A stretch of DNA of 34,010 nt, taken from IMG/VR virus record IMGVR_UViG_3300045135_001679, positions 1 to 34,010 of that record, one strand, 5' to 3'. Source of the stretch: a virus. Below are positions 9,105 through 33,829 of the stretch, piece by piece (the stretch's first letter is position 1; every line of letters starts with the position of its first letter). Both the position numbers and the translations under genes were made by a program. A model generated the notes under the pieces. The model made no database searches. It had not been told where the DNA came from and was given only the letters and a program-made list of their open reading frames with translations.

Positions 9105-9836
9105 TCAATCGTCAGAAAGAATTTCTAACAATTCGTTTTTGGTTTGCAGTTGACCATTATACAAAGTCTCAAGGTTGTACTTGTATGAAACTTTGTAGTC
9201 TGCTGGTACTTCTGGTGTTTCAACCACTATCTGACAAGTCAATTCACCTGACGGATCATATGTGTCATAGTCAAGTGTGAGTTTGTCATAGTTGATATAA
9301 TCTTTCCAATATACCGCCAGATCAAACGTCTTCTGGGGATCTGTTTTGCCATTTCGATCAATGAGTTGATAAACGACTGCTTGACCTTTTCGTCGAAGTG
9401 CTAGAATATCTGAAGGCATTTCACCAATGTAGTTTGGATAACGAACAACCCATCCCGTTCCGCTTTTGCCATACGTTGCTCCAGGTCTTTCGCTCGCTAG
9501 AAACTTCGCAAATCCTTCATCGAATGCTGGCTTTTCTGTGACTTCAAACTTGGGATTTGGTTCATACACACCTTCACTCACAATCAAACGATGCTGTGAG
9601 TACTCTGCCATACCGACAATCGATTGTAGAATCTGAGCATGAAGTGTTAGATTTCGTGCAAGTTGTAATCGATCAACTGAACCCGTAAAACTCTCATTGT
9701 ACAGTTTCTCTAATTGTGTTCGAGATCCTTTCGCACCCAAAAACTTAGCCATAGAAATTCCTGGACCAAGTTTCGTTGCCGAAGTAATCTCGTTGATGAG
9801 ATTAGGATCGTATTTAGGATCTATCAATATATTCAT
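9105..9836 (-). CDS. Uncharacterised protein in baseplate operon
   Basis: A 243-residue protein that I cannot assign to a family. The N-terminal half is mixed helical (LQLARNLTLHAQILQSIVG). The C-terminal half is beta-rich and acidic, with YWKDYINYDKLTLDYDTYDP and a final ELLEILSDD. There is no signal peptide, membrane segment or catalytic motif. Its ATG overlaps the stop of the needle gene by four bases (ATGA), so translation is probably coupled. Its place between the gp5 needle gene and gp25 makes a structural or assembly role in the baseplate likely, but that rests on position only. Confidence 0.8.
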   Translation of the reverse strand: MNILIDPKYDPNLINEITSATKLGPGISMAKFLGAKGSRTQLEKLYNESFTGSVDRLQLARNLTLHAQILQSIVGMAEYSQHRLIVSEGVYEPNPKFEVTEKPAFDEGFAKFLASERPGATYGKSGTGWVVRYPNYIGEMPSDILALRRKGQAVVYQLIDRNGKTDPQKTFDLAVYWKDYINYDKLTLDYDTYDPSGELTCQIVVETPEVPADYKVSYKYNLETLYNGQLQTKNELLEILSDD

Positions 9837-11287
9837 TTTCTATTCACCTTAAATCTCTTGCTTCGATTATCTGCGGGGTTATTACCCAACAATTCAACAC
9901 CAAATCTTATCGTACCTTTCTTGCTGGCTGATCGACCAATATTCTGTGGTATCGTTTTCTTAAATTTAGAATTCAAAAGACCGTTTTGAACTAGATACGA
10001 AGTAAACGTCTCGTTGTTTCTATTTACAGGGCTCCGAATTTTCGATCGAATCTCGTGAATGTCGGGATCGAAGTTAAACAACTCTTCGTAATCATCAGAC
10101 TTGAGTATCTTGTCTTTGAGTTTCGGATCAATCGCTACATTACGCACACCATACGAACTCGTTGACAACATTAGTTCGACAATAGGTGGTGCAGGTAATG
10201 GTGCAGATTGTGTTATCTGAGGATACGGCATAACTCCTGGAGTTGGCTCAGGTGTTGATACAGTTGTCTTCTTCTCTTTGTTGGCGATCAATGCTTTACC
10301 GGCACCTTTCGCATACTCTGCTGTTGTACATGTCATCGAGTAGTCTGCATGAAACGCTTCAGTAGCACGACCAACAAGAGCACCATAGAATGTCGAGACG
10401 TTTGTTTTCTCACCAGGAAGACCACCGTATGTTTTGCCGTAGTAGTCAATTGCGGGTCCACCAATCACACCTTTGTGACCAATGATACCTAAATGTCGAG
10501 CAGTGATACTTGCTGTAGGTGCCGCCGCTACCCATTCTTCAACTGCTGTCGTAATCAGTTTGCCGCCTGTTGTGATTTCAATATCATCTTCGACGAAATG
10601 CTTTGCTGTACCTTTGATGATCCAGTTCGCATCTTCGAGAACAGTTGTCGTTGCCATACCCACGACTTGCTCACCACGAGCGCCTCGAATCGTATAGTTC
10701 TGATCACGGTTTACTGTTTTGGTGTGTCGTCCTTTGATCTCTTCGTCTTTATCTCCTGCGACACGTAGATTATAATTCCCACCAACATCAACGTTGAAAT
10801 CGCCAGAAACAGTGAGATTGAGATTGCCTTTGTAAACAAGATTACCTTCTCCTTCGACAATTACTGTCTCATCGCCAGAAACTACCTCAATCTTTTGTCG
10901 TTGTGATGAAATAACAACACTGCCGTCTGCACGTAGTTCCATGCCAGCGCCAGTGCGATGCTTGATTAATATACGTTCACCACCGGGGGTGTCATCTATT
11001 TCAACAACATGACCCGATGGTGTTTCCGAAACTTGGTTGTGTGGATATTGAGAAGGCTTTTGCTCAGGCAAATCAAAGTTGACACCGAACTCACTTCCGC
11101 CTAAAGTAAGACTGTTGATCTTTGCACCCATCGCCGCTTTGTTGATGCTCGTGCCAAAGAAGTAATCACGCTTGGGATATTCACCAGTCGCATCAGCAAA
11201 ACCGTCGGCGGGTACACCTTCAGTTTCTTCTTGACCTTGAGAGATTATAAGATCACGAAACTTTAAATTGTCTATACTATTAGTCAT
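9833..11287 (-). CDS. 5: Baseplate hub needle, gp5 C-terminal beta-helix protein
   Basis: This 484-residue protein corresponds to the C-terminal part of T4 gp5. Near residue 30 it has DATGEYPKRDYFF, matching the DPTGQYPRR linker after the OB fold in T4 gp5. It then has YPHNQVSETPSGHVVEIDDT (residues 80-100) and GGERILIKH, matching the T4 segment before the needle. Residues about 130-240 contain repeats such as GNLNLTVSGDFNVDVGGNYN, the octapeptide-like pattern of the triple beta-helix. After the helix comes a Pro-rich stretch and a basic C-terminus that T4 gp5 lacks. It has no OB fold and no lysozyme domain: these functions lie in the two upstream genes. It is translationally coupled to the amidase gene by a four-base overlap. 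Confidence 0.88.
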   Translation of the reverse strand: MTNSIDNLKFRDLIISQGQEETEGVPADGFADATGEYPKRDYFFGTSINKAAMGAKINSLTLGGSEFGVNFDLPEQKPSQYPHNQVSETPSGHVVEIDDTPGGERILIKHRTGAGMELRADGSVVISSQRQKIEVVSGDETVIVEGEGNLVYKGNLNLTVSGDFNVDVGGNYNLRVAGDKDEEIKGRHTKTVNRDQNYTIRGARGEQVVGMATTTVLEDANWIIKGTAKHFVEDDIEITTGGKLITTAVEEWVAAAPTASITARHLGIIGHKGVIGGPAIDYYGKTYGGLPGEKTNVSTFYGALVGRATEAFHADYSMTCTTAEYAKGAGKALIANKEKKTTVSTPEPTPGVMPYPQITQSAPLPAPPIVELMLSTSSYGVRNVAIDPKLKDKILKSDDYEELFNFDPDIHEIRSKIRSPVNRNNETFTSYLVQNGLLNSKFKKTIPQNIGRSASKKGTIRFGVELLGNNPADNRSKRFKVNRK

Positions 11288-13131
11288 TTTCCAAACCTTG
11301 TTTTAACATAATCAGGTACATCAAATCCTGGATCGATATTTTCACCTGTGTCATCTATATCATTGTGACCGAGAATTGAAATACCTGGATACACTCGATA
11401 TATTGCACGACAGAAGTGGTCGAATGTATTCAACTGTGCTCGTGTAAGAGATTGAGCAGATAGAAAGTTCTCGCTGTTTGGTGTTCCTGTTGGTACATTA
11501 ATGCCGCCGATAAAAACAACACCCAAAGACTTCTCATCGAATGATAGTGGCGATGCATGTTCACCTTGTATGTTGACTGGTCGACCACGTTGTAATGATC
11601 CGTCTCGACGTATTACATAGTGATAACCAATGCCATCTAGACCCGCTTCAATATGAATCGCATTGATCTCTTCTGAGCCGATATTTTTATTAGTATGTGT
11701 CTCTGACCAATGAACAATGACCTTGTCAACCTCACGTGAGATAAATTGTATCTCGGCTTGCAGTTCTTCCACAGACGAAACATAAGGAAAGACAGGATCA
11801 TTTTGACCTTTCTGCCATTGTTCTTGATATGATCCTATTTCATACGGATCGGGAAACACCTGCTGAGAAACAGGAGGTCGAGTCGAATTGAAGATAGTGG
11901 TGTCAATAGATTTGAGAAATGCTTTGATTACATTATAGTCTTTCTTGGTCAAGTTGTACAGTAATTTAACTGCTTCACTCTCTTCTGCTTTATCGCCTTG
12001 AGACAGATTGATAACACGATTGACTTCTGCATCTGTTATAAATTTTGGTGATACAAAGTTTCGAATCTGACCTTGGACATCTGAGAGAGTCTCGGCACTA
12101 ATACCTTGAACCACGCCAACTTCAGAATTCTTGGCAACACGAGTTGTCACTATCGATTCGTAGTTACTCACTTCTGTAGAGAATCTACTTCGGCGATCTG
12201 CTTGAGTTTGAACAGACTCGATCACTTGATCAGGGTCTTTGCCGCCTGAAAGATTTTCCACATCGGCTTTTGCGGCCTCAAGATTCTGCTTGACTTCATT
12301 TTCTGGCTTGATTAGAACATCTAAGTCAAAGCCAACGTTTGTGCTCAGATTATCAATCATTGCATTGAATTCACCAAGATCTGTTGGACCACTAGATGTT
12401 ACAGTACCATATGTGTATACTAATTCTCCAAGTCCATCGCTGTCTATGTTAGTAATCTTGTTAACAGTTTTGTTGATATCACCACCTGCAAGTATTCCAG
12501 GTAAAACTTTATCAATGAGATCGTCAGTAACTGCCTTGAGTCCGTCTTTCGCCAGATTCTTTAAAGCGTCTGCTCCGCCGAATGCGCCGATCTTACCTTC
12601 GACTAATTCTTTTCCTGCATTCAACAATCCTTCAGGAGAAGCATCTGTGATGATCTTCTGTAAACCTCCAGGTTCAACACCAAGACCTGTAATCTGAGAA
12701 AGAACAGATGCGATTGCCTCTTCGCCTGTAGTGTCTGTTGCTAATGAAGATGCAATAGGAAGAACAACGCCGTTCTCATCAGGCTCACCGAATTGTATTT
12801 CTACTTTTGCACCGAACTTTGATGTTAAGCCAGATAATGCATTGTTGACCATATCGGTCGCCATGTTCTCTAGGCTAGCGGTGTTATTACTGAGTAAACC
12901 TTCAACGGTCTTCTTGGCGTCTTTCAGTTCACCCTTGAAAGCATCGACCTGCTGTGTTAGACTTTCGATACCACCTTGAACTTGACCTGCTATCTGACCT
13001 GCAATGCTCTCGCCTGCATTTGTAAACGCCTGCTTTACTTCTTCTGCGGTCGATTCGATCTTTTCGGTTGATATCGATTTAGAAGCATTCTTTACCTGAG
13101 TTTTTAATTGTTCTAGTTGTGTTTCAGCCAC
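11284..13131 (-). CDS. Baseplate-associated N-acetylmuramoyl-L-alanine amidase with long helical N-terminus
   Basis: A 615-residue protein. Residues 1-100 are coiled-coil-like (Glu, Lys, Gln, Ala rich). Residues 100-460 are unassigned. Residues about 468-615 form a T7-lysozyme/AmpD-type amidase_2 domain. Visible motifs are VIVHWSETHTN with zinc ligand His474, GYHYVIRRDG (Tyr503-Gly511), GEHASPLSF (His525), SLGVVFIGGI, LGHNDI with His589, and NIDPGF with Asp600 as third zinc ligand. The Lys that precedes the third ligand in T7 lysozyme and AmpD (K-x-C/D) is Asn598 here. The family cleaves the bond between MurNAc and L-Ala in peptidoglycan. Its position between the two gp5 pieces suggests a virion-borne wall-opening enzyme that supplements or replaces the T4 gp5 lysozyme. 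It overlaps both neighbours. Confidence 0.85.
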   Translation of the reverse strand: MAETQLEQLKTQVKNASKSISTEKIESTAEEVKQAFTNAGESIAGQIAGQVQGGIESLTQQVDAFKGELKDAKKTVEGLLSNNTASLENMATDMVNNALSGLTSKFGAKVEIQFGEPDENGVVLPIASSLATDTTGEEAIASVLSQITGLGVEPGGLQKIITDASPEGLLNAGKELVEGKIGAFGGADALKNLAKDGLKAVTDDLIDKVLPGILAGGDINKTVNKITNIDSDGLGELVYTYGTVTSSGPTDLGEFNAMIDNLSTNVGFDLDVLIKPENEVKQNLEAAKADVENLSGGKDPDQVIESVQTQADRRSRFSTEVSNYESIVTTRVAKNSEVGVVQGISAETLSDVQGQIRNFVSPKFITDAEVNRVINLSQGDKAEESEAVKLLYNLTKKDYNVIKAFLKSIDTTIFNSTRPPVSQQVFPDPYEIGSYQEQWQKGQNDPVFPYVSSVEELQAEIQFISREVDKVIVHWSETHTNKNIGSEEINAIHIEAGLDGIGYHYVIRRDGSLQRGRPVNIQGEHASPLSFDEKSLGVVFIGGINVPTGTPNSENFLSAQSLTRAQLNTFDHFCRAIYRVYPGISILGHNDIDDTGENIDPGFDVPDYVKTRFGK

Positions 13132-13991
13132 TACGTCATCACCTCTTCATAAGCCCGTTCCGCCAGTCTCTTTGTATTCTGTGGTATTTTCAGATACAAT
13201 CTATTTACTACTTCACTGGCATCGGTTAAATTTTGTGTGGCAAGAAGAGCATTATTTGCAGAACCAAACTTATTTCTCAATTCAAATAAAACATACTGTA
13301 ACTGAACAGAGAATAATTTCCAGTCAGTTGCTGGCACATACGAGACGGCAAATTGCAATAGACCTGCATAACGACTACCAATCTTACCATCGACCGACCA
13401 TTTTGCAATACCTGTTTTGGGTTTGCTATTGAATGTGACAAACGATGATGCACCTTGTAAAGCGCCAGCCAATGCGGCAGAGTGTATCAGATTGTAACCG
13501 TTATCAATGAAGAACTTCATCGCTTGTTGTCGTCTTAGGTTTACGTCAGCATTTGGAACGTCATCATCGTAGAGTCTTGTTATGACAACATTCTGAATTC
13601 GATTCTGATCATAAACAAACTTATCAATGCTGTTCAATCGTCTACCGCTCTGTACTGTTGTTGGCAGTTCAATACGAGGTAATGAACCTAACACAAGTGG
13701 AATCTGAGATGCGATACCGTCAAGAAAAACACCGAACACAAAAGCGCCTGTAGTCATCTGAGGAATACGACCGATACCAGAAGATCCGCCTTCAGTGGTT
13801 GGCACAATGACTTGTGCCCATGGTAGATCCTTTTCAGGAATGTCATCGGTCTTTTCACTGTGTACCCCCAGAATACGGACTTTCACACGACCTTCAAGAC
13901 CAGCAGGGGGTGTGGCGTTGACGACATAGCCCAAAAACCAGCGTACATCATCACCGTAATATTCTTTTTGTATGGGTCTCAATACATTCAT
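13131..13991 (-). CDS. 5: Baseplate hub gp5 N-terminal OB-fold protein with degenerate lysozyme-like domain
   Basis: A 286-residue protein. Residues 15-107 match the OB-fold of T4 gp5: WFLGYVVNATPPAGLEGRVK, then LPWAQVIVPTTEGGSSGIG, then FGVFLDG and PLVLGSLP. Residues about 152-275 resemble phage tail lysozyme domains (goose/SLT-type helical fold): a QQAMKFFIDNGYN helix, SAALAGALQGASSF, YAGLLQFAVS, an LQYVLFELRNKF helix and ASEVVNRLYLKIP. Where such enzymes have the catalytic Glu (pattern GNLxxES), this protein has GALQGAS (residues 176-182), so it may be inactive. The beta-helix needle is absent and is encoded two genes downstream. Its ATG overlaps the stop of the gp27-like gene, consistent with the gp27-gp5 hub complex. 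The OB assignment is firm and the lysozyme-like assignment is tentative. Confidence 0.85.
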   Translation of the reverse strand: MNVLRPIQKEYYGDDVRWFLGYVVNATPPAGLEGRVKVRILGVHSEKTDDIPEKDLPWAQVIVPTTEGGSSGIGRIPQMTTGAFVFGVFLDGIASQIPLVLGSLPRIELPTTVQSGRRLNSIDKFVYDQNRIQNVVITRLYDDDVPNADVNLRRQQAMKFFIDNGYNLIHSAALAGALQGASSFVTFNSKPKTGIAKWSVDGKIGSRYAGLLQFAVSYVPATDWKLFSVQLQYVLFELRNKFGSANNALLATQNLTDASEVVNRLYLKIPQNTKRLAERAYEEVMT

Positions 13992-15349
13992 ACGCCGTAA
14001 TCTTTTGGTAGTTCGCCAATCTTAGTTAATCGAAGTGAAGATAGGTGCTTGTTCTCATTGAACCTATGGTTTATTGCTAAAATCAAATAATCACCACTTT
14101 TTCTTTTATCTATTTGTGATGCATCTTCTTTCTCGTCATTTGATGTATTAGAGTTTAGAAATATGACACGAACTTTATTACCAGGAGATGCCTCTGATTC
14201 TAAAAACAATCTACCATCTACACCAATGTCAATGACATTCTTTTTGAGAATGTTGCGAATGATCTTATTTGTGATCTTGAGTTTTGATTCAATAAGATCG
14301 TTGTATTCGTTTAATAGTACCGCCTCATCATGATAACTCTTAAACTGGTTGTATGTGCCACTCGATGTTACCTGAAACACACTTAAAGAATTGTATTCGT
14401 CGGACAATTTACCATCAATCAATAAAGAAGGATCATATACTGTTTGAGCAACATCAGGTGAAATAAGACCGTTAGTATAGAACTCATCTATGATATCTCG
14501 AATCGTTATATGCGCACCCGAAGAAATGCCTGTACCGGCATCGATGTTTGCATAATAAGAACCTATCGCACCTTCTTCGTAGAGTTGCATCATGTTATCA
14601 ACGTTTGACTCTCGATATGAGATGATGTTATAATATGATTTCAATTCATCATCTTTATCATCAACACTCGAAGCCGCTTGAGTGTATCGTAGAGGAAACT
14701 TTTCGTTAAACGATGGTTCTTTTAGCAGACTGTCAAGATCGGATAATCTCAATGAGTTTGAAAACAACGAAGCATGAAGATATATCGGAGAACCTGTTCG
14801 AGTCGTTGCACGATCTTTTATCCAATTGACTGCTTCAAGAGGACTCAAATAAGGTATAATGACTTTTCGAATACCTTGAGCAGTACCTTCAAACTTATAC
14901 TTTGTTACTGATCGACCTAGTTCATTCGTGACAATAGTTTCGATCATGTTTTCTATGTTTGATGTAAACGATCGACTGATTTGTTTTACAGCATTAACGA
15001 ACACATGCTCTTCAACGAGTTCTAGAGAGATGATCTCCGAGCGTTCGTTGGCTTTTCTTACTTCATTGATCTTTGAGAAGAAGAAAAACTTTGTAAAGCT
15101 AACTTGTTCAGGCTCATCTAGATCACCGATAGTTATGCGAAGACGTTCAGTTCCTTGAACAGACAAGGTGTCTTTCATACCGAAGTCATCTAGAAAAACA
15201 ATACGTGCATCAATGTATGGCTTCTGGAGATGTTCGAACGTCTGAAACTCAATGACATTATTTCGAATGTCAACTTCGACTTCAGAGCCATCGACACGTG
15301 AAAATATCACGCTGGCATCAATTATATTGAACTGCGTCTTCGATGCCAT
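13988..15349 (-). CDS. 27: Baseplate hub subunit, gp27-like
   Basis: A 453-residue protein placed directly upstream of the gp5 OB-fold gene, as expected for the hub trimer partner. The N-terminus (DASVIFSRVDGSEVEVDIRN, then FEHLQKPYIDARIVFLDDFG) fits the first beta-barrel of gp27/gpD/VgrG-type hub proteins. The middle has LSPLEAVNWIKDRA, a typical helix of this fold. The C-terminus has GNKVRVIFL and SGDYLILAINHRFNENKH, which resembles the final barrel strand-loop of late-control-D proteins. T4 gp27 is 391 residues. The protein should form the torus on which gp5 sits and through which the tail tube opens. The assignment rests on motif pattern plus position. Confidence 0.78.
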   Translation of the reverse strand: MASKTQFNIIDASVIFSRVDGSEVEVDIRNNVIEFQTFEHLQKPYIDARIVFLDDFGMKDTLSVQGTERLRITIGDLDEPEQVSFTKFFFFSKINEVRKANERSEIISLELVEEHVFVNAVKQISRSFTSNIENMIETIVTNELGRSVTKYKFEGTAQGIRKVIIPYLSPLEAVNWIKDRATTRTGSPIYLHASLFSNSLRLSDLDSLLKEPSFNEKFPLRYTQAASSVDDKDDELKSYYNIISYRESNVDNMMQLYEEGAIGSYYANIDAGTGISSGAHITIRDIIDEFYTNGLISPDVAQTVYDPSLLIDGKLSDEYNSLSVFQVTSSGTYNQFKSYHDEAVLLNEYNDLIESKLKITNKIIRNILKKNVIDIGVDGRLFLESEASPGNKVRVIFLNSNTSNDEKEDASQIDKRKSGDYLILAINHRFNENKHLSSLRLTKIGELPKDYGV

Positions 15350-24987: not shown

Positions 24988-25766
24988 ACTAATTTATTCA
25001 CCTTCTTGAATCCAAATATTTTGATTGAGTGTAGTTCGTTTACCGATCGGTGTGTCTTGTCATGGATATCATGCTTGTCTGTTTTGTAATCATGATAGTA
25101 CTTACCATCTTCGGTGTACATTGCAAAATTGATAATACGTCTTAGATGCGTTGTGGGATATCTCACTGTCGCACGATGCCATGAGTTCGTCAGATTAGGC
25201 CAAATGACAAACACGTTGTCTTCGTATGGTATTTCTTTAATCAGACGATCTTTACCGTCGGTGATTTGAAAGTGACCGTCGTCGGAAGTATCGCCTTTCT
25301 CTCTAAAGTATAACAGACCCGATACCAACTTGTCACCATTATCCATGTGCCAGCCGATAATATTTTTTGCCTCAGTACATGCATTGTATGCACCATACGA
25401 GTACATACTCTTGTCTTGTAGCATAGAATCGGAAAAGTTTGGATACTCTTTTTCAAAATATGGACGAAATGCTTCGTCAAGCATGTCCCGAAATCCTTCG
25501 CTATTTTGCAATGACGTTAATGTTTTCATAACAACATCATTGAACTTACCGGAGAATTTATTTGAAGGTAGTGCAGTTGTCCATCGACTCTCACTCTCAC
25601 GACCCACAAATACACCATAGCGTTCGAGATTTCGAAACTGTCTCATGGTGTCTTTGAGTTCTGCATTGTTACTAAGGTAATCAAGCATCTCTTTGTCTTG
25701 GACAAAGTCACGTATGATGATGTGTGGAAATGGTGTCTCGTGTAATTCGTAATTTAAATTAAACAT
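24984..25766 (-). CDS. 2-oxoglutarate/Fe(II)-dependent oxygenase
   Basis: A 260-residue protein with the double-stranded beta-helix signature. The start, PFPHIIIRDFVQDKEMLDYL, is typical of prolyl-hydroxylase-like phage oxygenases. Iron ligands are His140 and Asp142 (GWHMDNGDKLVSGLLYF) and His197 (SWHRATVRYP); an Arg about ten residues on (Arg209 or Arg210) would bind 2-oxoglutarate. The family uses O2 and 2-oxoglutarate to hydroxylate or demethylate a substrate, which here is unknown. T4-like marine phages often carry several such genes. It overlaps the bilin reductase by eight bases, so the two are co-translated, but a shared pathway is not implied by sequence. Confidence 0.85.
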   Translation of the reverse strand: MFNLNYELHETPFPHIIIRDFVQDKEMLDYLSNNAELKDTMRQFRNLERYGVFVGRESESRWTTALPSNKFSGKFNDVVMKTLTSLQNSEGFRDMLDEAFRPYFEKEYPNFSDSMLQDKSMYSYGAYNACTEAKNIIGWHMDNGDKLVSGLLYFREKGDTSDDGHFQITDGKDRLIKEIPYEDNVFVIWPNLTNSWHRATVRYPTTHLRRIINFAMYTEDGKYYHDYKTDKHDIHDKTHRSVNELHSIKIFGFKKVNKLV

Positions 25767-26385
25767 ATGGAAACTGTATCTTTTTGAATTTGTTTACATA
25801 TTCTTCATCAAGACCGAGCGATATCATTACGTTTTTACTGTTCTCGTTCATCAACTGGTTTTTGCAGTATTTAGCCTTACCTTCACGATGCGCTTCAGAA
25901 GATGCTGGTCGATGATCAAACCAATCTTTGAGATGCTGAATACCAAATGATATCAAGCGATCGACCTCTTCTTCGTCTCGAACATTACCTGCCGCAATCA
26001 TTGAATCACTAAAGATCTCCTTTGCCCAATCAGGCAATGGTCGAGTTCGCTCAGGTACGAATGGTGCGACTTGCTCTCGAAACTTTTGACACAAAGGGTG
26101 ATTCACATCGTCTGTAGGCGACATGTCATGAAAACATCCTGTAACTTTATTCTTGCCTACTACAACATCAAAGCCATAGATCGGCATTGGCACATATCCT
26201 TTTGAGTATGTGTTGACATGCATCATCCACATACCCTTCGAAGGTCTCATATCAATGATCGATATATGTCCCATCTCTAGTACATCTGACGACCAGAAAT
26301 AGTTGCTGTGACATTTATCCCATTCATTCACACTGTAGTGACGTTTACCATTGGTATCAAATATCTTTATGAGTTCTTCACTCAT
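25759..26385 (-). CDS. pcyX: Ferredoxin-dependent bilin reductase, PcyA/PcyX type
   Basis: A 208-residue protein (numbering from ATG 26385) that aligns with PcyA along its length. Matches include a central block HVNTYSKGYVPMPIYGFDVV, then HDMSPT, then LPDWAKEIFSDSMI, and C-terminal AHREGKAKYCKNQ. His56 and Asp73 are 17 residues apart, the same spacing as catalytic His88 and Asp105 of Synechocystis PcyA. At the PcyA Glu76 position there is Ile44 (next residue Asp45), so the Glu is absent. PcyA reduces biliverdin to phycocyanobilin; PcyX, a PcyA relative from marine phage DNA, makes phycoerythrobilin. The lack of Glu76 and the phage context favour PcyX. Electrons would come from ferredoxin; none is encoded here. 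It starts ten bases after the heme oxygenase stop. An upstream GTG (26409) is a less likely start. Confidence 0.85.
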   Translation of the reverse strand: MSEELIKIFDTNGKRHYSVNEWDKCHSNYFWSSDVLEMGHISIIDMRPSKGMWMMHVNTYSKGYVPMPIYGFDVVVGKNKVTGCFHDMSPTDDVNHPLCQKFREQVAPFVPERTRPLPDWAKEIFSDSMIAAGNVRDEEEVDRLISFGIQHLKDWFDHRPASSEAHREGKAKYCKNQLMNENSKNVMISLGLDEEYVNKFKKIQFPYV

Positions 26386-26395
26386 ATCGATAAAC

Positions 26396-26914
26396 TTATC
26401 CCACAACACGAAAGTACCTTCCTAACTCTTTACTGATATTGATGTGCCAGTGAAATCCGTTGCGAACTTCGTTCACAAACTCTTCGGTGTCTTCACACAC
26501 CTGTTCACGTATATATTCTCGTTTCTCTTCGATCTCTTCAAACTCATACATTGAAGCAGACGTAGGGTATCGCTTCTTCATGATCTGACCACCGTACATA
26601 AATCCCATGTAGTTCAGATAGATGTGAGCGCCTATGTTTTCACAATGATGTTGTAGATAATACGAATAATCAATCGATGATCCTAGAACAAAATCCGAAG
26701 GACCGCCTAATGCTTTCAGATCCTTTTCTATTGCTTTGAGTCTTCGAAACTCTGGTGGTACATGCGGATCAAGTGATGTGAATATGTGCTTGTTTGATGT
26801 GAGATAGGCTCGACGTTCTTCGTCAGTCTGTTCGCCCTTGAACATCTTAACGTTGAATGGCAGTGCTTCTAACTCGGTGTGAAGATCGTTTGTGGCTTCT
26901 CGAATAAAACTCAT
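26396..26914 (-). CDS. ho1: Heme oxygenase (HO1 type)
   Basis: A 172-residue heme oxygenase, shorter than the cyanobacterial enzymes (about 240) because the C-terminal tail is missing. The proximal heme ligand is His12 in REATNDLHTELEALPFN. The distal helix with its flexible glycines is YMGFMYGGQIMKKRYP (Gly104, Gly108, Gly109). IDYSYYLQHHCENIGAHIYL and EDTEEFVNEVRNGFHWHINI are also family patterns. The enzyme opens heme to biliverdin, CO and iron, using ferredoxin electrons. It directly precedes the bilin reductase, so together they form a two-step heme-to-phycobilin route. Its ATG overlaps the stop of the DruA-like gene (ATGA). Confidence 0.92.
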   Translation of the reverse strand: MSFIREATNDLHTELEALPFNVKMFKGEQTDEERRAYLTSNKHIFTSLDPHVPPEFRRLKAIEKDLKALGGPSDFVLGSSIDYSYYLQHHCENIGAHIYLNYMGFMYGGQIMKKRYPTSASMYEFEEIEEKREYIREQVCEDTEEFVNEVRNGFHWHINISKELGRYFRVVG

Positions 26915-29637: not shown

Positions 29638-30286
29638 TATACATTAATTTCCGTATCTGATCTTTACCTGCTTGACCTGTCCAATGCATACACAGCTTGT
29701 TGGGATTATCTTGTCCATCTATTAGCTGTATACGCAACCAGTTGTATATATTAGGTACGTCAGCGATGTGCATCAATCTCATCATAGGATTGATTCTCAC
29801 TATTTCATGTAGTATTTCTTGATCGCCAAGTCTTGGATTATTTAAGCAACTCTGCATCCACTTTTTTAGAATCGGTGGCTTACCACGAATCGCTACGACA
29901 CCTGAGTTGTGCCATTTCTCACCTCGTCGTGCAGACCATGGCTTGTCTTCGACCATGGCGAGTTTATCGTTCTCAACGTATTTGAAAATACCAGATAGAT
30001 CACCTAGTACCTGAATGTCGGTATCGATCCAACACGTTTCTTCGTAAGGTGAATGATACAGTGCCGCAGGCTTATAGAACCATCCACCTACTGATTGCTT
30101 GGGTAAGTCTATGATTTCTATCTTCTCGACCTGATATAACCAAGACCGTGTTTCTTGGGTGATACCAAAATCACAAAACACCAATGGTGTATCATTGTGC
30201 TTCTTATAGTTCTTGATGAACCACTTGAGCATCCATTCGGTATTAGAATCACATCCTGTTATAAAGGCTCTATTCGACTTTGACAA
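29630..30286 (-). CDS. Glycosyltransferase, GT8-like
   Basis: A 218-residue protein with a GT-A pattern: SNRAFITGCDSNTEWMLKWF at the start, a metal-binding DxD motif at Asp88-Thr-Asp90 in CWIDTDIQVLGDLSG, then KWHNSGVVAIRGKPP (the acceptor-loop HNSG) and CMHWTGQAGK near the C-terminus, as in GT8 enzymes. No signal or membrane segment. It should move a sugar from a nucleotide-sugar to an unknown acceptor. It overlaps the GT25-like gene by 17 bases, as part of one operon. Confidence 0.7.
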   Translation of the reverse strand: MSKSNRAFITGCDSNTEWMLKWFIKNYKKHNDTPLVFCDFGITQETRSWLYQVEKIEIIDLPKQSVGGWFYKPAALYHSPYEETCWIDTDIQVLGDLSGIFKYVENDKLAMVEDKPWSARRGEKWHNSGVVAIRGKPPILKKWMQSCLNNPRLGDQEILHEIVRINPMMRLMHIADVPNIYNWLRIQLIDGQDNPNKLCMHWTGQAGKDQIRKLMYNE

Positions 30287-30932
30287 AATCGTAACTCCCT
30301 TCTTTGTAGTTGTGCTTGGCGTAACAGCCCGTCTTGTTTTGAATCGTAGTGAACGTATCTTTAGCGACCACAGGCCAAGGGTAATATTCCTCTAGCCAAG
30401 GAAAAAGGTCTACGTTCAAATAAACATCAGTCGCTTGAGCATAGAATGGTGCCTGTTCAACTAAAACTTTGGCACCTGCTGGCTTAAGTTTGTATGCGTG
30501 TGCGCCTGGAAAGTATTTCTTACTCGTCAATGGTATGACGCCCATCTGAAACGGCTGAACAAACTTACCATAGCTCGGTGCACCAAGACTGAGACAACCT
30601 TTGTAAGGTGCGTACTGTGGTATCTGATCAAGAACAACAGCGTCATGCTCAAAGATCACAAACTCTTCTTTACCCTTAGCACACATATCCCATAGTGTAT
30701 AGTGAGACATGAATGCCGAGATCACATTGTCAGGTCGTGAGCCAACATCATGCTTGAATCCTTCAAGGTTGATTTGTCGTTTCTTGGCTAACGCTTTCGG
30801 ATTCTTCTTAGGCGTGATAGCATCAAACATCTCGACGTGAAGATTAGATTTGTCGTTGGCACTTTTGATACAACGCTCAGAACACTTAACAGATCCATCT
30901 AAATCGGTTATCGTAATAACAAATGCTTTCAT
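30270..30932 (-). CDS. Glycosyltransferase, GT25-like
   Basis: A 220-residue protein of the GT25 (LPS galactosyltransferase) type. It has the short N-terminal ITITDLDGSVKCSERC strand, a helix with SAFMSHYTLWDMCAKGKEEF, the metal-site motif EHD at 95-97 (FVIFEHDAVV) and the later PGAHAYKLKPAGAKVLVEQA, a GT25 pattern. Probably adds a sugar to a glycan such as host LPS or a virion glycan. Its stop lies in the GT8-like gene, and the next gene upstream ends one base before its ATG. Confidence 0.72.
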   Translation of the reverse strand: MKAFVITITDLDGSVKCSERCIKSANDKSNLHVEMFDAITPKKNPKALAKKRQINLEGFKHDVGSRPDNVISAFMSHYTLWDMCAKGKEEFVIFEHDAVVLDQIPQYAPYKGCLSLGAPSYGKFVQPFQMGVIPLTSKKYFPGAHAYKLKPAGAKVLVEQAPFYAQATDVYLNVDLFPWLEEYYPWPVVAKDTFTTIQNKTGCYAKHNYKEGSYDFVKVE

Positions 30933-30933
30933 T

Positions 30934-31701
30934 CTATTCGCTCGGTTTTGTAAAGTAATCGCCTTTATGATGCGTACAATACTTAGATAACGGCACGTTC
31001 TTCCAACTGTTCCATGACATCTTCAGTTTGGGCGGGAGTAATTTGTGTGACTCAATGCCTTGTGCTTCCAAGTATTGTATACAATGTTGAAACGCATGGC
31101 AATCCGTCCAGCCTGTTTTAATATCAAATAGTTTCAAATCATCGTACAAGGTTCTCATCTCTTGCCAATACAAATCGTTGGCTGAATGATGAGTGTCAAA
31201 GCCTATGTAACCCGTGTCGGGAAAAAGATAAGAACCCGTCTCACGATTTATATAAGAAGCAAACTTACCTTCTTCAAACAACGTGTAAAGAAAATCATCA
31301 GGCATCTTTTTATGGAATATCACATCAGAGTCTATGTAACACAGATAGCGATTGGTCAGTGGTAAAGAATTTAATATGGCATAGACTTTGTAACAGAAAC
31401 GATGCGCATCCCACAGCCACATATCACTTTTAGTATATGACATGTTTTCGCTTTTCTTATTAGATCGTCTTCGCTGTACCTTAGTGGCAAGTAGATCTTT
31501 TGACTTCTCCTGAAAAGCCTTTACTTCAGTGAGATCAAACGGTACATAAGTGATCTTGTCAGTATTCTCAGGTAGATTATCACCCTCATACTGAACGATG
31601 ATATTGCAGTTGTCGGGCAAACATTTCTCAGCCGCCTTCACATTATCGAATGCGTATTGATAACGTTCGGGGAATGTAAAGACGGCAGTAAAATCCATCA
31701 T
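30934..31701 (-). CDS. Putative glycosyltransferase with DSD motif
   Basis: Start set at ATG 31701, where ATGA overlaps the gmd stop; the ATG at 31770 would run 73 bases into gmd. The 255-residue product has a GT-A type DxD motif, Asp124-Ser-Asp126 in YLCYIDSDVIFHKK, and later SYLFPDTGYIGFDTHHSAND and TGWTDCHAFQHCIQYLEAQG. Family not recognised with certainty. Its place between gmd and GT25-like points to use of an activated sugar made by the two upstream enzymes. Confidence 0.6.
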   Translation of the reverse strand: MMDFTAVFTFPERYQYAFDNVKAAEKCLPDNCNIIVQYEGDNLPENTDKITYVPFDLTEVKAFQEKSKDLLATKVQRRRSNKKSENMSYTKSDMWLWDAHRFCYKVYAILNSLPLTNRYLCYIDSDVIFHKKMPDDFLYTLFEEGKFASYINRETGSYLFPDTGYIGFDTHHSANDLYWQEMRTLYDDLKLFDIKTGWTDCHAFQHCIQYLEAQGIESHKLLPPKLKMSWNSWKNVPLSKYCTHHKGDYFTKPSE

Positions 31702-32666
31702 GACAACCTTTGTAGGTCTGCTTGTACCATAATCGAAGCCAGTTCTTTCAGTTCCATCTTGGCTTCCCATCCGAGTTTCTCTTTTGCTTTCGAAGCATCA
31801 CCTAACAGAACATGGAGTTCGGCAGGACGGAAAAACTTAGGGTCTTGTTTAACATACTGTGACCAATCGGCTATTCCAACTTCGGCAAAGGCAAGATCAA
31901 GGAAGTCCCGAATGCTGTAGCTCTTTCCTGTAGCGAGAACATAATCGTCAGGCTCTTCTTGTTGAAGCATCATCCACATACCTTCAACAAACTCTCCTGC
32001 AAATCCCCAATCACGTTTGGCTTCCAGATTACCCAACACAATCTCGTCACTTAAGCCAAGTTTGATTCGAGCAACACCATCACTAATCTTCCGAGTCACA
32101 AACTCAATGCCCCGAGTCGGACTTTCATGATTGAAGAGAATACCGCCACAAGCGAACATGTCATAACTTTCACGATAGTTGACGACCATATTATGAGCAA
32201 ACGCTTTGGCAACACCGTATGGAGAACGAGGAATAAAAGGTGTCAACTCAGTCTTAGGCTCTGCACCGCCTGAGTTGCCGTACATCTCAGAAGTACCTGC
32301 TTGATACAGTTTGGTATGAGGACTAAACTGTCGGATTGCTTCGAGAACATACAACACACCCATACCATTCACAGCCGAAACATAGACAGGCATCTGCCAT
32401 GACAAACCCACAAAACTTTGGGCGGCAAGATTGTAGAACTCGTCAGGTTGAATATCTTTGACGATATTCTGAATACTACACTGATCTGTTAAATCAGCAC
32501 TAACTAACTCAATCTGATCTTTGATACCAAGCCATTCGAGATTTTCGAATGACTGATTGATTCGACGTGAAATAACGCCATAGACTTTGTAGCCCTTACC
32601 AAGAAGAAACTTGGCAAGGTAACCACCGTCTTGACCGGTAACACCAGTAACTATTGCAGTCTTCAT
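31698..32666 (-). CDS. gmd: GDP-mannose 4,6-dehydratase
   Basis: A 322-residue short-chain dehydrogenase/reductase. The NAD(P) site is GVTGQDGGYLAKFL (Gly8, Gly11, Gly14). FYNLAAQSFVGLSW and TSEMYG (Thr125-Ser-Glu) are Gmd-specific, and the catalytic Tyr150-x3-Lys154 lies in SPYGVAKA. NHESPTRGIEFVTRKI and GNLEAKRDWGFAGEFVEGMW complete the match. It converts GDP-mannose to GDP-4-keto-6-deoxymannose, the precursor of fucose, rhamnose, perosamine and colitose. The next gene upstream, a ColD-like enzyme, fits the last route. It overlaps both neighbours by four bases. Confidence 0.95.
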   Translation of the reverse strand: MKTAIVTGVTGQDGGYLAKFLLGKGYKVYGVISRRINQSFENLEWLGIKDQIELVSADLTDQCSIQNIVKDIQPDEFYNLAAQSFVGLSWQMPVYVSAVNGMGVLYVLEAIRQFSPHTKLYQAGTSEMYGNSGGAEPKTELTPFIPRSPYGVAKAFAHNMVVNYRESYDMFACGGILFNHESPTRGIEFVTRKISDGVARIKLGLSDEIVLGNLEAKRDWGFAGEFVEGMWMMLQQEEPDDYVLATGKSYSIRDFLDLAFAEVGIADWSQYVKQDPKFFRPAELHVLLGDASKAKEKLGWEAKMELKELASIMVQADLQRLS

Positions 32667-33829
32667 AACTGATTAAGAACTCCTTCAAGTAATTCAAAGT
32701 GCTCATCGGTCAATAGATGATTGTTGCCGATGTACACTCCATGTTCATGCGCCAGATCTGCATTTGCTTGATCTGTAGCAACGGGTACATTATCTAGTCG
32801 CTTTAAAAATGGGTGTCTCATCAGATTACCACCGATAACAGGACGAGTCTCAATACCCGCTTCGTCTAACAATTTCTTGACTCGATCCGCCACTGCCTTT
32901 TCTTTGGCAACAAAGGGGAAACAGAAACTGCTGTTGTTTCTACCCGCTTCAGGAACATAGAACTTGAATGGATCTAATAACTTGATATATCGATCAAAGT
33001 TCTTTCGACGTGCTTCGATGAAACTATCGAGACGCTTTAACTGCTCTAGACCAAGAACAGCATGTACCTCATCGTTTCGACAGTTTAATCCATCAGTGAC
33101 AAAAAGAAACTGAGGATTGATATCAGGATTCTGAGCGGCATATTCTTCAAATCGAGTTGACTCACGTGCCATACCGTGACTACGCTTCATTCTCATCAAA
33201 TCATACAGATCGTCGTCATTACAACAAACCATACCACCTTCGATCGTTGTCATGTGATGACCAAAGTAGAAACTAAATGTAGAACCAAGAGATTTTGCTC
33301 CTCGCTTAACTCCGTTCGCATCTTCGACACCATGGCTCTCACAGACATCTTCGATGAGTATTGCATTAGGGAAAAGATATGCAATATCATCCACCTTCGC
33401 ATTCAATCCTAGAAGGTGAGTGATGAAGACCATCTTGATTTCTTTTCGTTCGTCTTCACTCATCTGCTCTTGAATTTTTATCAGATCAAAGCTGTAGTCG
33501 TCGAAGTTGATATCGGCAAAGACCGGTGTCAAACCAAGTTGCATAATTGGCGCAACGTTGGTCATCCATGTGCAGAGAGGAACAAGGACTTTGTCACCAT
33601 TTTGTAGATTGTATTTCTCTTTGACAGCCGCTACCAAAAGAAGGTTAGCTGTACTGCCCGACTGAACAAACAGAGAGTGTTTACAACCTAACCACTCACT
33701 CCATGCTTCTTCAAACTCCTTTACCTTCGGTCCGTTTGTCAGACGGTCTGACGACAGTAGAAAGTCTGCCATTGCCGCTTTGTCTGAAGGTGTGATTATG
33801 TCATCCATTAATTTCCATTTATAACTCAT
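32663..33829 (-). CDS. ColD-like GDP-4-keto-6-deoxymannose 3-dehydratase (DegT/AHBA family)
   Basis: A 388-residue PLP fold-type I protein, the same length as E. coli ColD. The usual aminotransferase Lys motif is replaced by FGHHMTTIEGGMV (His191-His192), the pattern of ColD and related PLP 3-dehydratases, where His stands in for Lys. VQSGSTANLLLVAAV, PLCTWMTNVAPIMQLGL and EDVCESHG are family motifs, and the C-terminal IETRPVIGGNLMRHP and HGVYIGNNHL match ColD closely. The enzyme would remove the 3-hydroxyl of GDP-4-keto-6-deoxymannose, the Gmd product, toward a 3,6-dideoxysugar such as colitose. The ColC step is not in the window. No iron-sulfur cysteines of the RfbH type were seen. Confidence 0.85.
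   Translation of the reverse strand: MSYKWKLMDDIITPSDKAAMADFLLSSDRLTNGPKVKEFEEAWSEWLGCKHSLFVQSGSTANLLLVAAVKEKYNLQNGDKVLVPLCTWMTNVAPIMQLGLTPVFADINFDDYSFDLIKIQEQMSEDERKEIKMVFITHLLGLNAKVDDIAYLFPNAILIEDVCESHGVEDANGVKRGAKSLGSTFSFYFGHHMTTIEGGMVCCNDDDLYDLMRMKRSHGMARESTRFEEYAAQNPDINPQFLFVTDGLNCRNDEVHAVLGLEQLKRLDSFIEARRKNFDRYIKLLDPFKFYVPEAGRNNSSFCFPFVAKEKAVADRVKKLLDEAGIETRPVIGGNLMRHPFLKRLDNVPVATDQANADLAHEHGVYIGNNHLLTDEHFELLEGVLNQL

Follow-up and report, generated by a model that had tools for sequence, protein, structure and literature searches.

A phage needle locus of three neighbouring genes with two wall-cutting folds, one or the other of which looks inactive in most lineages

Introduction

In mature phage T4, the part of gp5 that carries the OB fold and the lysozyme and the part that forms the needle are separate chains, and the cleavage that parts them is described as falling between lysozyme and needle, with a linker motif on the OB side (PMC7650644, PMC3004832). 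Here we analyse the corresponding locus of an uncultured virus, IMG/VR record IMGVR_UViG_3300045135_001679, whose positions 1 to 34,010 carry a baseplate operon of the T4 type, encoded on the minus strand; this whole stretch of 34,010 bases is called the window below. Like T4 gp5 with its partner gp27, the locus has an OB fold, a lysozyme-fold domain, a trimeric needle and the linker motif. Unlike the single chain of T4 gp5, its parts are separate genes with an amidase gene between them, and its lysozyme is of the gp13-type family, stands ahead of the linker motif and has no catalytic glutamate (Glu). A large group of mostly uncultured phages appears to build its needle in this way, from three neighbouring genes with two different wall-cutting folds, and in most lineages one cutter or the other looks dead while its fold is retained.

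Parts of this arrangement are found in cultured phages. Caulobacter phage Cr30 (L323 among the loci sampled here) has OB fold, Phage_lysozyme2 domain and needle in the same order as the window, but on one gp5 chain of 701 amino acids with the Glu intact, with no amidase gene and with a PAAR protein next to it. The locus of Rhizobium phage RHph_I1_18 (L324) is split like that of the window, a Phage_lysozyme2 protein of 300 amino acids being encoded apart from the needle gene; it differs in having an open reading frame (ORF) of 116 amino acids instead of the amidase gene and a weak Peptidase_M15_3 match in the needle protein. In Rhizobium phage RL38J1 (L244), as in the window, a separate gene encodes a short OB protein that brings a wall-cutting domain of its own, there a CHAP domain. 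Splitting and enzyme exchange therefore each occur in cultured phages. In HTVC008M, gp5 is a single gene of 350 amino acids. The hub protein gp15 of Anabaena phage A-1(L) sets a precedent for the hub proposed below for the window, being a baseplate hub with several hydrolase domains (lysozyme, endoglucanase and peptidase, with activity described for two of the three), and differs in being one hub chain with other domains and a spike that is a separate protein (PMC10966104). An amidase-type gene between the two halves was not found in the annotated phage records searched, and among the open-access PMC papers listed by the searches made no title or start of an abstract pointed to an amidase gene that divides gp5 or to reciprocal inactivation of two hub hydrolases.

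Three genes and two wall-cutting folds

The features on which the analysis rests are as follows (Pfam cut-offs in bits; codons of single residues checked).

13131..13991, minus strand: gene 1, OB fold and lysozyme-fold protein, 286 amino acids (ORF with Gp5_OB and Phage_lysozyme2 matches)
13671..13952, minus strand: OB domain, gene 1 residues 14–107 (Gp5_OB, E 6e-7, 30.2 bits, cut-off 25; T4 gp5 chains at E 3e-13 with a profile)
13134..13550, minus strand: lysozyme-fold domain, gene 1 residues 148–286 (PF18013, E 3e-6; phi29 gp13, Z 14.9)
13449..13451, minus strand: Ala181, at the catalytic Glu position by alignment (gp13 Glu45 via relative L083)
13401..13403, minus strand: Lys197, replacing the Gln of GIAQW by alignment
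11284..13131, minus strand: gene 2, amidase protein, 615 amino acids, GTG start (ORF, Pfam)
11812..13131, minus strand: N-terminal part of gene 2, residues 1–440 (matches no known family; poor model)
11326..11736, minus strand: zinc amidase domain, gene 2 residues 466–602 (Amidase_2, E 4e-10, 40.5 bits, cut-off 26; T7 lysozyme)
11710..11712, minus strand: zinc ligand His474, invariant in 38/38
11365..11367, minus strand: zinc ligand His589, invariant in 38/38
11332..11334, minus strand: zinc ligand Asp600, invariant in 38/38
9833..11287, minus strand: gene 3, needle protein, 484 amino acids (ORF, Pfam)
11168..11206, minus strand: linker motif DGFADATGEYPKR, needle residues 28–40 (alignment; codons checked)
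10562..10774, minus strand: Gp5_trimer_C needle repeats, needle residues 172–242 (Pfam, E 1e-7, 32.3 bits, cut-off 30.9)

The original prediction described an OB fold, an amidase and a needle on three adjacent, overlapping genes. ORFs, overlaps and Pfam matches uphold this, except that gene 1 holds more than an OB fold. A tail lysozyme domain of the phi29 gp13 type, which had been overlooked, makes up its second half, and the content of the three genes, as read from their sequences, is OB plus lysozyme fold, amidase and needle. The gene 1 model (mean predicted local distance difference test score of 70, and 77–95 by ten-residue blocks in the lysozyme part) matches the phi29 gp13 lysozyme over 136 residues at Z 14.9 and a root-mean-square deviation of 2.4, the next unrelated rows having Z 8 or less, and Foldseek pairs it with gp13-type lysozyme at probability 1.00 and E 1.7e-3. 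Gene 1 also matches PHROGs labelled "baseplate hub subunit and tail lysozyme". PF18013 (Phage_lysozyme2) matches 35 of 35 aligned gene 1 proteins at E up to 0.01, with 91.6 bits for relative L083, and no T4-type lysozyme family is among the Pfam hits of gene 1 with E up to 1.

When L083 is aligned with gp13, Glu45 of gp13 pairs with the second Glu in the GNLEAES motif of L083. Glu45 is the suggested catalytic residue, and its counterpart in a GH184 muramidase is described as essential by mutation (PMC10394673). The window protein has alanine at this position, and lysine in place of the Gln of the GIAQW motif. Divergence at nonsynonymous sites is low while that at synonymous sites is saturated, the lysozyme domain included, and the lysozyme fold is therefore still under constraint.

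The amidase domain of gene 2 has T7 lysozyme as its best PDB match (profile E 6.7e-18; Foldseek E 1.1e-6). From the roles of these residues in the T7 lysozyme family, we take H474, H589 and D600 to be the zinc ligands and Y503, which is invariant in 38 of 38 aligned gene 2 proteins, to be the active-site tyrosine. Gene 2 differs from T7 lysozyme, a stand-alone protein, and in gene 2 the third ligand is Asp (Cys in relative L285). For its first ~440 residues no credible family match was found in Pfam or PHROGs; a fold for this part was dropped from consideration, the model being poor and all 30 Foldseek rows (E up to 0.001) being amidase or PGRP folds. By their active-site residues, the lysozyme of the window looks dead and its amidase looks alive.

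Genes 1 and 2 overlap by 1 nucleotide (TAGTG) and genes 2 and 3 by 4 nucleotides (ATGA); short start/stop overlaps are frequent in translationally coupled genes. The arrangement proved conserved when the gene order of related phages was surveyed: wherever the whole middle gene and a needle gene are in view, which is the case in 142 unique relatives, there are three separate ORFs, the overlaps being typically of 1, 4, 8 or 11 nucleotides, and the order is kept across relatives from many IMG/VR contigs.

Distribution of the active sites among relatives

Scans for relatives gave the best 80 of 575, of 225 and of 147. The sample of 326 loci plus the window held 305 OB rows, 293 with a lysozyme domain and 279 of them uncut, which became 166 unique gene 1 proteins once identical ones were merged. 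Both sites could be rated in 143 of the 166. The 23 not scored at the zinc site comprise 14 with no next ORF of at least 250 amino acids close by (11 near a locus end, L203 and L301 with a short next ORF, and Cr30, which is fused), five whose next ORF has no amidase match (four cut by the locus end, plus RHph_I1_18) and four in which the ligand region is cut. In L301 (6843–7373 and 7355–8668) and L203 (6867–7424) a short ORF opens the middle gene, and in L301 the amidase-type domain lies on the second, overlapping ORF, which is either a real split or a frame error. One alignment was used per site. The Glu column comes from the global alignment, under which L210 is no Glu loss, and L285 (His, His, Cys) counts as intact in the totals and in the no-regain count given below and as lost in the tree of 106 representatives.

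Among the 143 unique loci, Glu is absent and the zinc triad kept in 57, the window included, while the reverse, Glu kept and triad absent, holds in 68; both sites are kept in 17 and neither in one (L183). Under a stricter lysozyme rule that asks for Glu and Gln, the same four classes count 60, 68, 14 and 1. Seen from either side, the site that remains is almost fixed: the His-His-Asp (HHD) triad is present in 57 of the 58 scorable Glu-lacking proteins, and the Glu in 68 of the 69 that lack the triad.

Both inactive-looking forms retain their folds. In the 61 Glu-lacking proteins the Glu column holds A, V, I, K, Q, T, S, C, R or L. Only 7 of them have the Gln of GIAQW, as against 102 of the 105 Glu-keeping proteins; the W is present in all 61. 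The triad-lacking domains are still amidase homologues, as shown by 27 middle genes that match our own profile at E 1e-35 (best) to 0.009 (weakest). Many different residues replace the lost zinc ligands. All 73 HHD proteins have the active-site tyrosine, as against 8 of the 70 others. The middle gene of L285 (6861–8918) has a His-His-Cys triad inside a clade otherwise without ligands, pointing to repeated zinc losses.

That gp5-type parts are encoded as separate genes thus stands, as originally proposed. The accompanying idea, that the wall-cutting chemistry had simply been exchanged, fares less well, since a Glu-less lysozyme domain persists beside the amidase and some related lineages keep both sites intact. 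What had been taken for an exchange looks, from the alignments, like reciprocal inactivation of two coexisting hydrolases rather than replacement.

Phylogenetic analysis of the losses

A tree was built from 106 representatives with the catalytic columns excluded. By parsimony on this tree the Glu changes four times: the main loss is at the base of the window clade, and the other changes are in L043 and L116, where they look like reversals, and in L183. The zinc triad changes twice. A tree of the needle domain only places the Glu-lacking group of the window on one side of a branch with support 92, and the triad-lacking rows again need two changes. Under a rule that forbids regain of the triad, L285 implies nine zinc losses, of which only that of L183 falls outside the Glu-keeping rows; applied to the Glu, the rule likewise yields nine losses, driven by L043 and L116. 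The independent-pairs test gives p 1, on too few informative pairs. Because parsimony yields few independent events, namely two zinc losses and one main Glu loss, a link between Glu loss and zinc loss is suggestive and not demonstrated statistically.

Proposed function and alternatives

We consider it probable that the three products form a gp5-type injection hub built from separate chains. Its needle would breach the outer membrane and its amidase would cut through the wall, with the lysozyme fold kept in an inactive state. Gene 1 would be seated on the gp27-like hub with its OB and lysozyme folds, gene 3 would be the trimeric membrane-piercing needle, and gene 2 would supply a zinc N-acetylmuramoyl-L-alanine amidase, possibly docked by the long N-terminal part that carries it; such docking on the hub is a guess, because this part has no confident model. 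On sheath contraction the needle would pass through the outer membrane and the amidase would then open the peptidoglycan. In gene 1 the lysozyme fold would be an inactive remnant, retained as a structural or glycan-binding part. Whether the hub inherited both a glycosidase in the OB protein and a zinc amidase in its neighbour, after which lineages inactivated one or the other, perhaps repeatedly, with both folds kept, is to our minds an even call.

Several observations weigh against this picture. The PF18013 match of the window protein, at 27.8 bits, is 0.4 bit under the cut-off of 28.2; the N-terminal part of gene 2 lacks a confident model; and the window-like relatives L043, L116 and L118 have a Glu at the column. 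Their Gln of GIAQW is gone, and for that reason we judge the Glu to be there by chance. In addition, among phage proteins the amidase domain is best matched by stand-alone amidases or endolysins from T7-like phages, a result that would suit a gene 2 that is a lysis enzyme and merely sits in the baseplate operon, leaving the hub without a working hydrolase of its own. We think this improbable, given that gene 2 lies between genes 1 and 3 in 142 of 142 unique loci, that it has ~440 extra N-terminal residues absent from T7-like endolysins, and that its protein is kept in many relatives without zinc ligands, as one would sooner expect of a structural part than of a lysis enzyme. Nor does it seem likely that the gene 1 lysozyme is still active through another residue, with both enzymes at work: the fold is well kept and under constraint, down to the W of GIAQW, but the Glu column and the Gln drift freely in the window clade while being nearly fixed outside it.

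A stronger competitor, possible although we lean away from it, holds that the reciprocal pattern is a chance product of common descent, in which a small number of ancient losses were inherited with no functional link between the sites. The small number of changes under parsimony favours it, and the independent-pairs test, short of informative pairs, gives p 1, whereas the near-fixation of whichever site remains and the nine zinc losses implied by L285, confined to Glu-keeping rows but for L183, speak for the reciprocal inactivation preferred here. Finally, frame-shifting errors in one gp5 gene, which the original prediction had named as a possible source of the three genes, were checked and excluded: nothing was found in their favour, and an artefact that recurred as three separate ORFs, typically with small overlaps, in every one of 142 unique relatives would be extraordinarily improbable.

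Tail-associated hydrolases are usually seen as swappable modules, and here two unrelated ones stand side by side, with relatives that show which active site each lineage let go while the fold was retained. This makes it testable whether one specific bond must be cut or any one will do, and whether dead folds serve as structural or glycan-binding parts; if each lineage does keep one enzyme or the other, the group would be a natural experiment on the choice of bond that has to be cut for entry. It also calls for caution in annotation, for a "tail lysozyme" named from profiles alone can be a protein without the catalytic residue, as gene 1 of the window is.

Linker motif, needle and neighbouring genes

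The linker motif that had been noted in the needle gene is real: DGFADATGEYPKR aligns with EGFSDPTGQYPRR, residues 112–124 of gp5 from the T4-like phage OLB35, at 61.5% and E 0.003, with five subjects in all. Its place has changed, however. In T4-like gp5 it precedes the lysozyme, as the domain borders given for T4 gp5 indicate (PMC7650644), whereas in the window it follows both the lysozyme domain and the gene break. The suggestion that the split mirrors the T4 cleavage consequently fails, the break here lying upstream of the motif and the T4 cut between lysozyme and needle, and an equation of genes 1 and 3 with exactly gp5* and gp5C was dropped because the motif is on the other side of the lysozyme. 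Vibrio phage D479 has a gp5-like single chain with no lysozyme match and the linker motif directly behind the OB fold. Different lysozymes may have entered an ancestor that had none, each at its own place.

On the minus strand the operon runs gp48-like, gp53-like, gp27-like, genes 1–3, gene X, gp25 and gp6, and two further members probably belong with the hub.

13988..15349, minus strand: gp27-like hub protein (phrog_350, E 2e-37)
9105..9836, minus strand: gene X, seen as a fusion with the needle in several relatives

By its position the gp27-like protein is presumably the partner of gene 1. Gene X is a probable needle partner, because in several relatives, L077, L079, L080 and L083 among them, the two form one protein with X at the C-terminal end of the needle. 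A putative M15-type peptidase domain occupies the C-terminal ~180 amino acids of the fused needle and X protein in L077, L079, L080, L083, L168 and L171, identified from weak Pfam matches (L077, L083) together with a profile and residue motifs; it would give these phages, in which the lysozyme and amidase sites are both kept, a third enzyme for cutting the wall. The C-terminal part of the needle of L183, the relative with neither Glu nor triad, has HPLGWAAD and HYD motifs like those of these domains. A Peptidase_M15 domain in L183 was rejected, there being no Pfam match and no listing by our own profile, and the residue motif alone remains.

The closest phage record to the gp6 of the window is that of phage C48C1 (38%), followed by Synechococcus phage S-CAM1 (33%). 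None of 1,392 matching phage records covers 80% of the length of gene 2, and a search of 50,697 phage records gave no match for gene X; since no record covers most of gene 2 and none matches gene X, the collection holds no close cultured relative.

Elsewhere in the window, a heme oxygenase gene (PF01126, E 2.5e-11; 26396–26914, minus strand) adjoins one for a ferredoxin-dependent bilin reductase (PF05996, E 1.3e-7; 25759–26409, minus strand), a bilin-synthesis pair in an uncultured T4-like phage. A glycan cassette at 30270–33829 (minus strand) comprises a GT25-type glycosyltransferase, a gene without a Pfam match, a GDP-mannose 4,6-dehydratase and a DegT-type aminotransferase.

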